Positions 11,489-16,018 of a DNA stretch of 64,000 bases are shown here, piece by piece. The notes under the pieces are model-generated. The model worked only from the letters and a program-made list of their open reading frames with translations. It did no database searches and was not told where the DNA came from. Source of the stretch: Desulfovibrio sp. JC010 (lineage in GTDB: Bacteria > Desulfobacterota > Desulfovibrionia > Desulfovibrionales > Desulfovibrionaceae); NCBI RefSeq assembly GCF_010470675.1, contig NZ_VOIQ01000002.1, positions 186,001 to 250,000 of the forward strand. The letters are read 5' to 3'. The first letter of the stretch is position 1; each line of letters starts with the position of its first letter. The translations under genes and the position numbers were made by a program.

Positions 11489-11805
11489 TTGTACACCTCA
11501 TTAATTAAAAACGTCTTCTGGGAATCAATTTTTCTCAGATTTATCTTGGACAAATCAGTAGAATTTCTGCAAACAGATGGTCATTAATTTTTAATATTAA
11601 CCAGACTTGGCAAAAGCGCAACCGCAACAAGTTATATTTTTACTTCAAAACCTTTCCATTTTTACAATTCAATAATATAAACAGATAATAGCTTCGGCCT
11701 TAAAAAAATAGCAAAAATGGTTTGAAAACAACAAGCGGTATCCGTGCTGATCATGTTTTCTAAAAGCCGGACCGCATATTCATAAATTAATTAAAGGGGA
11801 GAAAT

Positions 11806-13425
11806 ATGACCGCTGATTTACAGGAAGATGTAGCTCTGCAACACTTTGTTGAACAGTCGCTGGAAAAACTGGACCAGATTGAAAATGTCCTCATAGAGAT
11901 GGAAAAAACCACTTCACCCTCGGCAGCATCAGTTGCGCAGGTGTACGGGATTCTCGTTTCCCTGAAAGAAAGTGCGTCACTGCTTGAGCTTACCAACATA
12001 AGCCTCGTAGCGGACAAAATCGGCAAGGTGCTGGATCAGGTATATAAAAAGGAAATTGAACTCAGTAACGACCTGCTGAACATCATTATCGATTCGTTTG
12101 ACAAGCTCAACGAGATGGTCAGTAACGCCACCCTGAGCAATGGCTATGACATCCGCATCATAACCCTGCCGCTTGAAATGTACTCCAAACCCACTGCCGC
12201 TCCTGCTGAGAAAAAAGCAGAACCGGAAAAAAGCACTCCGGCTCCCTCACCGGAACCGGCTCCTGCTCCGGCATCGACAGCTGAGCCCGACCCCGAACCT
12301 ACCCCGGAACCCGAAACAGCAGAAACCTTTGTCGAAGAACCTCAGGAGACTGAAGCTCCGGCCGCAGAAAGCAGTGCCGAAACAAAACTCAGCCCGGCTG
12401 CATTCCGTAAAAAATACAGCATCAAAAAAGACATAGACCTTGCCAGCAACTCTAATCCGCTGGGAGTCTCCAAGGCAGTGTCAAACGCCATCATCAACAT
12501 AGCCAACAACTGCAATATTTCCGAAAGCGACTCCACCGACAGCCTGAAGTTCGGCCTCGCCAAGCGGCATGACGTACCGGAAGAATGCGTCCTCACCGCG
12601 GGAGGTGCAGTGGAAATTCTCGACCTGACCCTGCGTCTTTCCGCGATTCCGGGAGTAGACCACGTGCTGAGCTATGAGCACGGCATGCCGGAATACAGCA
12701 GCGTTGCCGCTCTCTGCGGAGTGGAACTGCTGCGGCTGCCCAGAGGACGAAATTTCTCACCTCCGCTGGACCAGCTGGTGAAGACAGCAAACGAGACCAC
12801 TGCCGCAGTCATCATCACCAACCCGGACATTCCTTCCGGCTACGGTCTCCCCGCAGAAGAACTGGCCACCATGTCCAACCTCCTGCCTGAGCGGACCCTG
12901 CTCATTGTTGATGAAAGATCAGTGGAATTCTCATGGCCTGAAGACGACTACTCCATGGTCAACTTTCTGGATAAAGCACCTAATCTGGTCATCCTGCGCA
13001 GCTTCTCATGGTCCTTCGGCCTTAGGGGAGTGCGTCTCGGATATGCTCTGCTGAACAGTAAACGCGCCCGGGAATTCGAAGAATCAAGGCTTCCCCTGCC
13101 CATCAGCCCGCTGAATGTGGAAGCAGGACTGGCAGCCCTTAACCACAGTGAGTTCTACTACTCCACTATCGCCCTGATCATCAGGGGCAGGGAACGTGTA
13201 CAGAAGGGGTTGGAAGAACTGGGCTGCACCGTCTATCCCAGCCAGAGCAACTTCATTATGTTCAGTGCTCCCATAACGGCAAAAGAACTGCATAGTAAAA
13301 TGCTGGATCACGGCTTTAAACTGCGTAAGTTGGATGAATACGGTATTTCTGACCTGCTTACAGTTTCCATCGGAAACAACTCCCGGAACCGCATGTTTCT
13401 CGCAGCCATGAAAAACATTCTATAA
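11806..13425 (+). CDS. Hpt-like / HisC-like aminotransferase chimera lacking both catalytic residues
   Basis: A 539-residue protein in three parts. Residues about 10-105 form helices that align with a CheA-P1/Hpt domain, but the phospho-accepting His of the HTLKG motif is Val51 (LVSLKES). Residues about 127-195 are a Pro/Glu/Ala-rich linker. Residues about 200-539 align with fold-type I aminotransferases of the HisC/CobD group: NSNPLG start, ITNPDIPSG and the GLRGVRLGY segment are kept. The PLP lysine is Trp402 (SFSWSFG), the DEAY tyrosine is Ser, and the C-terminal substrate arginine (RITVG in HisC) is Thr (TVSIG). Catalysis by either domain is therefore unlikely; ligand sensing or scaffolding is an inference. 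A 13-base gap separates it from a lipoprotein gene. Confidence 0.8.
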   Translation: MTADLQEDVALQHFVEQSLEKLDQIENVLIEMEKTTSPSAASVAQVYGILVSLKESASLLELTNISLVADKIGKVLDQVYKKEIELSNDLLNIIIDSFDKLNEMVSNATLSNGYDIRIITLPLEMYSKPTAAPAEKKAEPEKSTPAPSPEPAPAPASTAEPDPEPTPEPETAETFVEEPQETEAPAAESSAETKLSPAAFRKKYSIKKDIDLASNSNPLGVSKAVSNAIINIANNCNISESDSTDSLKFGLAKRHDVPEECVLTAGGAVEILDLTLRLSAIPGVDHVLSYEHGMPEYSSVAALCGVELLRLPRGRNFSPPLDQLVKTANETTAAVIITNPDIPSGYGLPAEELATMSNLLPERTLLIVDERSVEFSWPEDDYSMVNFLDKAPNLVILRSFSWSFGLRGVRLGYALLNSKRAREFEESRLPLPISPLNVEAGLAALNHSEFYYSTIALIIRGRERVQKGLEELGCTVYPSQSNFIMFSAPITAKELHSKMLDHGFKLRKLDEYGISDLLTVSIGNNSRNRMFLAAMKNIL

Positions 13426-13438
13426 ATTGGAGGATTCG

Positions 13439-13759
13439 ATGTTCAAAAAAGTACTTCTCACCGGTTTTCTTCTGCTTTCAATTGCCGGGTGCTCAAGCCA
13501 TCCCACAACCACACAGGATGTCAGCGCGTTCTGCCGCTCACTTCCTACTGAAGAACTCTGCGCCACTCAGGATGCCGTTTGTGCCAAATATTCTGAAATA
13601 ACACTAGCTCCATACCAATCCGCCAAAGAATGCCGTATGGCCTGTGAATCCGTACACATGAAAATGGACCGTGACCTGATGCAGGCTGACTGCCTGCAGC
13701 TGATCCAGAATGTTGAGGAAAAGTGCAACGAATTCTGCAATTCCAACTACGCTGATTAG
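13439..13759 (+). CDS. Small cysteine-rich lipoprotein
   Basis: A 106-residue exported lipoprotein. The start ATG 13439 follows GGAGGA; an in-frame TTG 12 bases upstream would place the ribosome-binding site inside the gene. A signal peptide ends in the lipobox IAGC. The mature part has eight further cysteines in about 85 residues, enough for four disulfides, and otherwise no motif I know. It lies 13 bases after the chimeric gene and probably shares its transcript. It may sit in the periplasm as a partner or sensor, but this is speculation from position only. Confidence 0.8.
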   Translation: MFKKVLLTGFLLLSIAGCSSHPTTTQDVSAFCRSLPTEELCATQDAVCAKYSEITLAPYQSAKECRMACESVHMKMDRDLMQADCLQLIQNVEEKCNEFCNSNYAD

Positions 13760-13820: not shown

Positions 13821-13851
13821 AGGCAGTGCTCCGGCAAGCGGGGCACTGCCT
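13821..13851 (+). terminator. Hairpin after the lipoprotein gene, weak T tract
   Basis: GGCAGTGC (13822-13829) pairs with GCACTGCC (13843-13850), with inner GC pairs. Only TCTGATT follows, so it may end transcription poorly and let reading continue into the chemoreceptor gene. Confidence 0.55.
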
Positions 13852-13887
13852 CTGATTAATATGAACAAACCAAAGGATTTTTGCGCC

Positions 13888-15954
13888 ATGCTGAAACGGT
13901 TTACTGTCGGACAAAAAATATTCTCCAGCTTTATTGTTGTATTTCTCCTTTTTGGAGTCGTCAGCATTGAATCATTGATGGCATTGCAAAAATCATCCTC
14001 AGGTTTTACGGACTACCGGGACTTCGCCAAGGACTCAAATCTGATCGGTGAAATTCAGGCCGGCATCCTGCAAGGGCGCACCCACGTTAAAGACTACATA
14101 ATCACCGGGGACAATAAATACAGCCGTAAATACTTCGACAATGCCAAAGAAGTCTTTCCACTGCTCGAACGGGCTGAAAAAGAACTGGCCTCGGAAAACC
14201 GGGCCAATCTCATCAAAAAAATCAGCTCCCTGCTGAAAGATTACGATGCAAGTTTCAGCGAAGTGGCGAAAGCCCAGCGAGAAAGGGACAATCAGGCATA
14301 CTCCGTACTGGTCCCGGCCGGGGATATCATGGAGCAGAATTTCAACCGTATAATCACCAATCTGGGCAAATCCAAGAATAATGCAGCCGCCCTTTATCAC
14401 TGTGCAAAAGGGGTAAGACATCTGGTTCTCGGCAGACTGTATACAACTAAATTTATTGAGAACAGCTTAGAATCACACCAGAAAAGAGCCATGGCTGAAA
14501 TGGCTGCAGTGAACAATGAACTGGTCCAGCTCAACACACTCCTAAATAAACAAAACCTGATCCTGCTTCAGGAAATAATTGATGCGCGTAAAAATTATCT
14601 TAATGGATTAGGAGAACTCTTTGCCCAGACAGCAACCCGTGACAAGCTGCTGAACACCGAACTTGACGTGATAGGTCCCCAGATGAGCGGACTGATCACT
14701 CAGGCCAAATCATCAATAGTCGCGGATCAGGACAAACTCGGCCCGACACTGCAGGCCCGTAATGACCGGGCAATCCAGAACACCTATATTTTCGGATTTT
14801 TTGCCTTTGCCATCGGCGTCATTGCTGTTGTCTTCGTCGGGCGGGACATCACCCTGCCCCTGCGTAAAGTAGTGGAAGCTGCCTACCGCATTGCCGAAGG
14901 TGACATGACTCAGGAAATCAAGGGCACTGACCGCAAGGACGAGCTCGGCTCCCTTGCCCGTGCCTTCAACAAAATGAACGGGTCGCTCAATCAAATGGCC
15001 GGAGCAATGAAACGGGTTGCCGATTCCGACCTGACTGTAAGTGTGGAAGCCCGCTCGGAAAACGATACTATCGGCAAGGCACTGGCAACCATGGTTGAAA
15101 CCCTGAAAGGTGACAACCAGCAAATCCACGAAACAGTACGCACCCTGTCCTCTTCCCTGAGCCAGATTTCCGCGGCTTCTGCAGAGCTGACTGCCAGTGC
15201 GGCGGAAACCGCCAGCGCAGTGGCCGAGACCAATGCCACAGTGGAAGAAGTCAAACAGACTGCCCACCTTTCCAATGAAAAATCACGGCAGGTGGCCGAT
15301 GTGGCCCGCAAGGCCGTCTCCACCTCCCAGCAGGGCAGAAAGGCTGCGGACGATGCGTCTTCCGGCATGAAAGACATCCGCACCCAGATGGACACCATTG
15401 CCCAGTCCATAGTGAAACTTTCCGAACAGTCCCAGCACATCGGAGACATTATATATGTAGTGAACGACCTTGCTGACCAGTCCAATATTCTGGCAGTAAA
15501 CGCCTCAATTGAGGCATCCAAAGCCGGAGAGGAAGGACGGGGATTCACCGTGGTTGCCCGTGAAATCAGAAATCTTTCGGACCAGTCCAAACAGTCCGTA
15601 GCCCAGATCCAGTCCATCCTCGCCGACATCCAGAAAGCCACCAGCTCTGCGGTAATGATCACCGAACAGGGCGGCAAGGCTGTTGAAACAGGGGCAACGC
15701 TCTCCTCCCAGACCGGGGAGGCCATTCTCAACCTGAGCACGGTCATCAACCAGTCCGCCCAGTCCTCAGCACAGATTGCGGCCTCCAGTCAGGAACAGCT
15801 GGCCGGACTTGATCAGGTGGCTGTGGCACTGGGGTCCATCAAACAGGCCGGGGAACAAAACCTCGAAAGCTCACGCCAGTTGGAAGAGGCAGTCAAGGAC
15901 CTCGACCAGCAGGCCCGCTCCCTGAAAGACATGATGGACAGGTTCAAACTATAG
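13888..15954 (+). CDS. Methyl-accepting chemotaxis protein with long periplasmic helical sensor
   Basis: A 688-residue transmembrane chemoreceptor. I choose ATG 13888 because AAAGGA (13872-13877) lies ten bases upstream; the in-frame ATG at 13861 has none. TM1 is about 10-30, a helical ligand-binding region of about 265 residues follows (size and helix content suggest an HBM-type four-helix bimodular sensor), TM2 is about 298-320, then HAMP to about 372. The cytoplasmic tip that binds CheA/CheW is near 531-570 (SNILAVNASIEASKAGEEGR). No C-terminal NWETF-type pentapeptide is present. Ligand unknown. A strong terminator follows. Confidence 0.92.
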   Translation: MLKRFTVGQKIFSSFIVVFLLFGVVSIESLMALQKSSSGFTDYRDFAKDSNLIGEIQAGILQGRTHVKDYIITGDNKYSRKYFDNAKEVFPLLERAEKELASENRANLIKKISSLLKDYDASFSEVAKAQRERDNQAYSVLVPAGDIMEQNFNRIITNLGKSKNNAAALYHCAKGVRHLVLGRLYTTKFIENSLESHQKRAMAEMAAVNNELVQLNTLLNKQNLILLQEIIDARKNYLNGLGELFAQTATRDKLLNTELDVIGPQMSGLITQAKSSIVADQDKLGPTLQARNDRAIQNTYIFGFFAFAIGVIAVVFVGRDITLPLRKVVEAAYRIAEGDMTQEIKGTDRKDELGSLARAFNKMNGSLNQMAGAMKRVADSDLTVSVEARSENDTIGKALATMVETLKGDNQQIHETVRTLSSSLSQISAASAELTASAAETASAVAETNATVEEVKQTAHLSNEKSRQVADVARKAVSTSQQGRKAADDASSGMKDIRTQMDTIAQSIVKLSEQSQHIGDIIYVVNDLADQSNILAVNASIEASKAGEEGRGFTVVAREIRNLSDQSKQSVAQIQSILADIQKATSSAVMITEQGGKAVETGATLSSQTGEAILNLSTVINQSAQSSAQIAASSQEQLAGLDQVAVALGSIKQAGEQNLESSRQLEEAVKDLDQQARSLKDMMDRFKL

Positions 15955-15981: not shown

Positions 15982-16018
15982 AAAGCTCCCGAAGGTTCAG
16001 CCTTCGGGAGCTTTTTGT
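15982..16018 (+). terminator. Intrinsic terminator after the chemoreceptor gene
   Basis: Perfect 14-bp stem (AAAGCTCCCGAAGG at 15982-15995 with 16001-16014), loop of five, then TTTGTTTT. Confidence 0.92.

Follow-up and report, generated by a model that had tools for sequence, protein, structure and literature searches.

A CheA-P1/Hpt-like domain without its phospho-acceptor histidine fused to a HisC-type fold without its cofactor lysine, conserved across a genus of Desulfovibrionaceae

Known pseudoenzymes usually have one dead domain. Pseudo-Hpt domains and lysine-less PLP folds are both already known, each separately from the other. A close comparison for the former is AHP6, an Hpt-type protein whose phospho-His is mutated, which is kept by selection and inhibits a phosphorelay (PMC3572949). 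Bacterial P1/Hpt domains without the His, and without an established function, occur in ChpA, a multi-Hpt CheA (PMC10542144). Among PLP folds, LCB1/SPTLC1 of serine palmitoyltransferase lacks the cofactor Lys and is kept for regulation or structure (PMC3794620). A further precedent is deoxyhypusine synthase, which is reported to be activated by a dead paralogue (PMC3663545). We found no report of an Hpt-aminotransferase fusion of this kind among open-licence PMC papers.

Here we describe a gene within a 64,000-nucleotide stretch of the genome of Desulfovibrio sp. JC010 (the window) that encodes a CheA-P1/Hpt-like domain which lacks the phospho-acceptor His and is connected through a variable linker to a HisC-type fold, which in turn has lost the PLP Lys and most pocket residues (Table 1). 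The initial annotation had the frame and length right; the gene is a single open frame on the forward strand with 539 uninterrupted codons. A Pfam scan of the protein found neither a kinase (HATPase) nor a CheW-like domain, and the protein does not classify as a CheA kinase. In this it differs from ChpA, whose His-less Hpts sit within a working CheA kinase (PMC10542144). AHP6, unlike the fusion, is a plant stand-alone Hpt without an aminotransferase fold, and its inhibitory action has been shown (PMC3572949), whereas we infer that of the fusion. LCB1 belongs to another PLP-enzyme subfamily, pairs with active LCB2 and is without an Hpt domain (PMC3794620).

Table 1. Coordinates of the fusion gene, its domains, its altered sites and its surroundings in the window
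Feature	Position	Strand	Basis or observation
Fusion gene: His-less P1/Hpt-like domain, linker and Lys-less HisC-like domain, 539 aa	11806..13425	+	ORF, Pfam/NCBIfam, phmmer, orthologues
P1/Hpt-like helical bundle, residues ~9-128	11830..12189	+	phmmer to CheA P1; model helices, pLDDT 71-87 by blocks of ten
Pro/Glu-rich linker, residues ~129-191	12190..12378	+	pLDDT ~28-45; fast dN/dS
HisC-like pseudo-aminotransferase domain, residues ~192-539	12379..13422	+	Pfam, NCBIfam, phmmer, model pLDDT 92.5, Foldseek
Val51 codon, phospho-His position	11956..11958	+	His in 0/17 orthologues, 14/14 relatives
Met294, aromatic stacking on PLP	12685..12687	+	L11 M5 R1 in orthologues; Phe in 25/25 HisC rows
Ile342, conserved PLP-site Asn	12829..12831	+	I11 V3 M2 E1 in orthologues; Asn in 25/25 HisC rows
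Ser372, Tyr of DEAY	12919..12921	+	S11 Y3 A2 C1 in orthologues; Tyr in 25/25 HisC rows
Trp402 codon, PLP Lys position	13009..13011	+	Trp in 17/17 orthologues; Lys in 16/16 own-genus HisCs
Thr519, substrate Arg	13360..13362	+	T15 K2 in orthologues; Arg in 25/25 HisC rows
Small Cys-rich lipoprotein	13439..13759	+	Starts 13 bases after fusion stop, own GGAGG; downstream in 17/17 genomes
Chemoreceptor (4HB_MCP_1, HAMP, MCPsignal)	13861..15954	+	Pfam; downstream of fusion in 17/17 genomes
Sigma-70-like site TTTACA-17-GATAAT upstream of fusion	11661..11689	+	Consensus match only; 9 in region vs 4.2 expected
Terminator-like hairpin, 15 pairs, after chemoreceptor	15982..16014	+	Consensus match only; 15 in region vs 6.0 expected

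Searches covered 58 relatives and then 288 genomes of the family, 17 from the genus of the window and 271 from other genera. A profile of the orthologues recovered the full-length fusion in every one of the 17 (862-1026 bits); the best other match scored 339.5 bits, and the other matches listed from the 288 genomes align with the aminotransferase part only. A match in a genome of another genus (G070) is a fusion in spite of its aminotransferase-only alignment, so this search can miss divergent fusions. Searches scoring only a few candidates per genome returned the 17, G070 and one HisC-only match (G220) at 1e-118 from 348 genomes of the order, with a profile that included G070, and the window's genome (fusion and own HisC) with three aminotransferase-only matches at 1e-100 from 395 genomes spread evenly over the phylum. 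None of the 458 matching plasmid records covers 80% of the protein, the best five matching the aminotransferase part only (28-30%), and none of six viral-contig stretches that matched a pattern was confirmed.

Both dead domains are under purifying selection about as strong as that on working HisC. Nei-Gojobori dN/dS over 11 species pairs, in several of which dS is high or saturated, is 0.018-0.116 for the N-domain (10 finite pairs), 0.033-0.121 for the aminotransferase domain (11 pairs) and 0.045-0.098 for true HisC of the same genomes (11 pairs). The linker ranges from 0.167 to 2.236 (8 finite of 11 pairs), with the highest value coming from 45 codons at a dS of 0.07. A decaying or dead gene might be suspected from the loss of both active sites and from substitutions, in at least one orthologue, at 110 of the 163 positions that do not vary in own-genus HisC. 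This explanation is scarcely credible and is for practical purposes ruled out by orthologues intact in 17/17 genomes, none with internal stops, and by the HisC-like dN/dS.

The N-terminal 128 residues alone, searched against the PDB with phmmer, align over residues 11-114 with CheA P1 structures (2ld6, 7.6e-6; 1tqg, 1.8e-5) and place Val51 opposite the phospho-His, in agreement with the initial annotation; the top row of the same search is 6ff6, "BRIC1" (2.2e-7). The Pfam Hpt model reaches 14.8 bits over residues 11-101, below its cut-off of 24.6. The AlphaFold model has helices at 9-34, 40-59, 63-80 and 88-106. P1 homology and a helical bundle are thus present, and the Hpt acceptor His and a passing Pfam score are absent. 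Lone Hpt or CheA-type P1 proteins of the same family (L118-L129) are the nearest His-bearing relatives found, scoring 57.9-73.5 bits with an N-domain profile of the 17 orthologues; conversely, a profile of 14 His-bearing relatives, chosen by similarity to the N-domain, gives 71-84 bits on the orthologues listed. Phospho-His, network His and network Glu are all retained in each of these 14, and position 55 is Gly in nine and Ala in five. The fusion keeps none of this. Position 51 is V7 L7 F1 I1 T1 across the orthologues, the network His has given way to D6 G6 S5 at position 70 and the network Glu to G16 A1 at position 73. Lys54 is retained in 17/17 and Glu55 is invariant. Of the residues initially noted in place of the phospho-His and the PLP Lys, Trp402 proved conserved throughout the genus, while Val51 is not itself fixed and only the absence of His is constant.

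A small residue at the position equivalent to 55 lets the receiver dock on Hpt/P1 domains. Loss of the P1 phospho-network together with retained Lys54 and a new, invariant Glu55 is what would be expected of a surface kept without phosphotransfer, and the invariant N-domain residues (Lys54, Glu55, Glu83, Asp96 and Asp99) could be involved in partner docking. As in AHP6, an Hpt-type domain is conserved here without its His (0/17, low dN/dS). Among the matches listed, an N-domain-only search gave 30 loci, namely the 17 orthologues, G070 and 12 His-bearing proteins, the last without an aminotransferase part in the ORFs read. The best His-bearing matches are lone Hpts of another genus (L125, L127). 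The window's own genome also holds a lone 145-aa Hpt-like ORF with its His intact (L051, G000:C1:332626-332985). In other genera of the family, a His-bearing P1/Hpt is followed by a region that looks P2- and STAS-like by eye (L118, L121-L124, L126, L128, L129), and in L121, L122, L124 and L126 a second P1-like domain lies on the directly following ORF.

The C-terminal domain matches Pfam Aminotran_1_2 over residues 208-531 (108.5 bits) and, by phmmer, PDB structures of HisC over residues 200-537 (best 3get, 4.9e-26). Its best NCBIfam model is hisC TIGR01141, at 193 bits against a cut-off of 276.55, a score too low for a HisC equivalog. HisC has the same fold and is the closest family by sequence, but it keeps the Lys and the whole pocket, which the fusion does not. 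Eleven pocket positions were mapped onto the fusion by alignment and spacing: nine listed as conserved in I-beta aminotransferases in PMC4703992, together with the stacking aromatic and position 86 of that paper. The 17 orthologues keep 4-6 of these, compared with 11/11 in all 25 other-genus HisC rows (24 distinct genes, one present twice, picked among the top matches). The same 25 rows all have Lys at the cofactor position.

Comparison with 16 own-genus and 25 other-genus HisC rows bears out what the initial annotation said of Trp402, Ser372 (Tyr of DEAY) and Thr519 (substrate Arg). If anything it understated the losses, which extend to Ile342, Met294, residues 268 and 269 of the GxGSDE loop and the FRYP motif (237-240), and in the N-domain to positions 70, 73 and 55, the last now Glu. 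Neither His nor Lys is restored in any of the 17 orthologues. A migrated PLP lysine was sought and rejected: Lys is kept in at least 15 of 17 at 202, 208, 223, 248, 390 and 505, only K390 is invariant, and G070 has none of them; by sequence order K390 precedes the strand leading to the pocket.

Within the pseudo-domains, pocket residues are neither specially retained nor specially lost (3/11 pocket positions kept in all, versus 50/152 other HisC-invariant positions; Fisher p = 1.0), and the argument is carried by the difference from true HisC. Overall conservation of the pseudo-domain is slightly below that of own-genus HisC (mean column entropy 0.61 versus 0.50 bits; 17 and 16 rows). Two stretches, ~350-360 and ~444-460, nevertheless surpass own-genus HisC in conservation. 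In the second, a fixed His, Leu and Ile have taken the place of the HisC-invariant Asp447, Val457 and Val458, and fixed residues also stand at positions variable in HisC (Glu449, Tyr452, Ser453, Ile455 and Ile459). Judged from conservation, these stretches are a possible new contact face.

The main rival to the scaffold reading developed below is a metabolite sensor, in which a small molecule such as an amino acid, a phosphorylated metabolite or PLP that forms no Schiff base would bind to the fold, whose state the P1-like domain would relay to signalling partners. Pro343, Asp369 and Gly412 are kept in 17/17 and the phosphate-site Arg410 in 15/17, new invariant residues lie in and near the fold, and a chemoreceptor gene is nearby, all of which would suit a sensor. 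Against it, positions 294, 342 and 372 vary freely among the orthologues, which argues against a conserved cofactor, the 265-269 loop varies too, and Trp402 may fill the cofactor site. We consider such a sensor unlikely. The ligand-binding role entertained by the initial annotation fares accordingly; because several pocket positions vary freely, the case for binding in the old PLP pocket is weak. The same variation counts against new chemistry, that is, an enzyme still active through another reaction in the old pocket or, as in ColD, which uses PMP without a Lys, through PMP. Strong selection on the fold and retention of Asp369 and some phosphate-site residues would be in keeping with an enzyme, but where the Lys stood there is no new invariant residue of a catalytic type (Trp in 17/17, Arg in G070), and we regard this explanation as very improbable.

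Structure models are consistent with a retained type I PLP fold. An AlphaFold model of the aminotransferase domain, predicted from an alignment that contained 28 HisC rows and the G070 domain, reached pLDDT 92.5 and pTM 0.90; in Foldseek its best 50 rows were HisC and related proteins (TM 0.75-0.86), HisC first, with the first five at 0.84-0.86. A full-length model built from the orthologues alone gave pLDDT 71-87 in the N-domain helices and a poor aminotransferase domain (mean 55.7, pTM 0.32), and its best 50 Foldseek rows were aminotransferases and related decarboxylases with no P1 among them. The proposal that the fold is kept without chemistry is well supported by the presence of the gene in 17/17 genomes of the genus, low dN/dS, the absence of restored His or Lys and this confident HisC-fold model, whose alignment included HisC rows.

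A fold so preserved might instead serve as a regulatory pseudo-subunit, controlling the true HisC of the genome or some other aminotransferase by pairing with it, in the manner of LCB1/LCB2. Such pairs exist, and every one of the 17 genomes has a HisC paralogue with the Lys (FSK motif in 17/17, one cut by a contig end). However, the aminotransferase domain of the fusion is only ~35% identical to true HisC. In HisC the Tyr of the FRYP motif reaches the active site of the partner subunit; the corresponding position is F13 S2 M1 L1 in the orthologues. In addition, this explanation leaves the P1 domain unaccounted for, and the nine window genes tested in the neighbourhood include no his gene. It is less likely than the metabolite sensor, and indeed improbable.

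The genes that follow the fusion are those initially annotated, a Cys-rich lipoprotein and then a chemoreceptor, on the same strand in all 17 genomes. The spacing of the lipoprotein start behind the fusion stop, with a GGAGG of its own (Table 1), suggests that these two genes probably form one operon. The lipoprotein has no Pfam match; it has relatives, divergent and often multi-copy, in 44 of 288 genomes, counting the 17, and in 9 of 44 genera. As markers of further fusions they led nowhere, since the other window genes, the fusion included, were unmatched beside the copies examined in G220 (two places) and G301. Upstream, on the opposite strand, lies a ferritin/rubrerythrin-like gene in 17/17 genomes. 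The wider region is syntenic as well, with hslU, a TPR gene and flgE in 16/17 (missing from the G015 stretch) and livJ in 16/17 (missing from the G002 stretch), so the proximity of the chemoreceptor is no more than suggestive and may simply reflect a stable region. No che gene turned up next to the fusion. Thus the tie to signalling made initially is plausible: domain type and chemoreceptor synteny in 17/17 genomes speak for it and make it a good hypothesis, while the synteny of the surroundings tempers it.

A pattern scan of 330 bases before and 480 after the fusion in the 17 genomes found no sigma-54 or sigma-28 promoter. Between the divergent ferritin-like gene and the fusion, a block at 11610-11623, GCAAAAGCGCAACC, is largely conserved upstream of the orthologues and may serve as a regulator site or belong to the ferritin-like gene's promoter. 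An inverted repeat seen by eye at 13822-13850 (GGCAGTGC...GCACTGCC, no T run), in the gap separating the lipoprotein gene from the chemoreceptor gene, could weaken read-through.

The divergent fusion in G070 carries, in one frame, a P1-like domain in which Asp stands in for the His and a HisC-like domain in which Arg stands in for the Lys and 5 of 11 pocket positions are retained; this genome also has a normal HisC (L083). Pfam Hpt gives its P1-like domain 19.9 bits, below cut-off, and Glu at position 55 is the only P1-motif change seen in common with the 17. In the full tree a single split (95/71) sets all 18 pseudo-domains apart, but long branches come together at that point. When the 17 orthologues are left out, the G070 pseudo-domain stands beside G070's own HisC (92/64), and the AU test does not reject a tree constrained to that pair (p = 0.297). 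An N-domain profile made without G070 scores its domain at 36.4 bits, with 13 of 14 His-bearing relatives higher and one lower, a result that counts against a shared fusion event or, at the least, lends it no support. Both a single origin and two parallel ones would suggest that pairing two dead domains has some use. Within 16 kb of the G070 fusion, no match to any neighbour gene of the window was found.

Our preferred reading, held tentatively at a probability of roughly 0.42, is that the fusion is a non-catalytic signalling adaptor or scaffold, a decoy or tether for CheA or receiver proteins that possibly tunes the neighbouring chemoreceptor. The aminotransferase fold is a dimer in relatives. 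In the fusion it would form a rigid platform, probably also a dimer, whose vacant cofactor site would be occupied by Trp402, and would carry the His-less P1 bundles on tethers. These bundles may dock on a partner of P1 domains, for example the kinase domain of a CheA or a receiver of the CheY type, and, as they could neither accept nor pass phosphate, would act as a decoy or tether tuning signalling, possibly that of the adjacent chemoreceptor. Several observations point towards a scaffold: presence in 17/17 genomes with low dN/dS, loss of the P1 network alongside Lys54 and Glu55, invariant Trp402, the newly conserved stretches of the fold, lipoprotein and chemoreceptor genes that follow in every genome, and the precedents of AHP6 and ChpA. 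Regional synteny, the lack of a che gene beside the fusion, the unmatched neighbours in G070 and the absence of P1 from the Foldseek rows weaken it. A fuller account, more doubtful as a whole, would have an enzyme fold recruited as a Trp-plugged dimeric platform that presents dead phosphotransfer domains to chemosensory kinases or receivers, a phosphorelay competitor that arose once or twice (in the genus and in G070) with different dead-site replacements.

What sets this locus apart is that a catalytic domain from signalling is fused to an unrelated one from amino-acid biosynthesis, that both are dead, and that strong selection maintains them throughout a genus. The locus offers a natural test of what the Hpt and PLP folds can do without their chemistry, and of whether bacteria, like plants, use pseudo-Hpt proteins as phosphorelay competitors.
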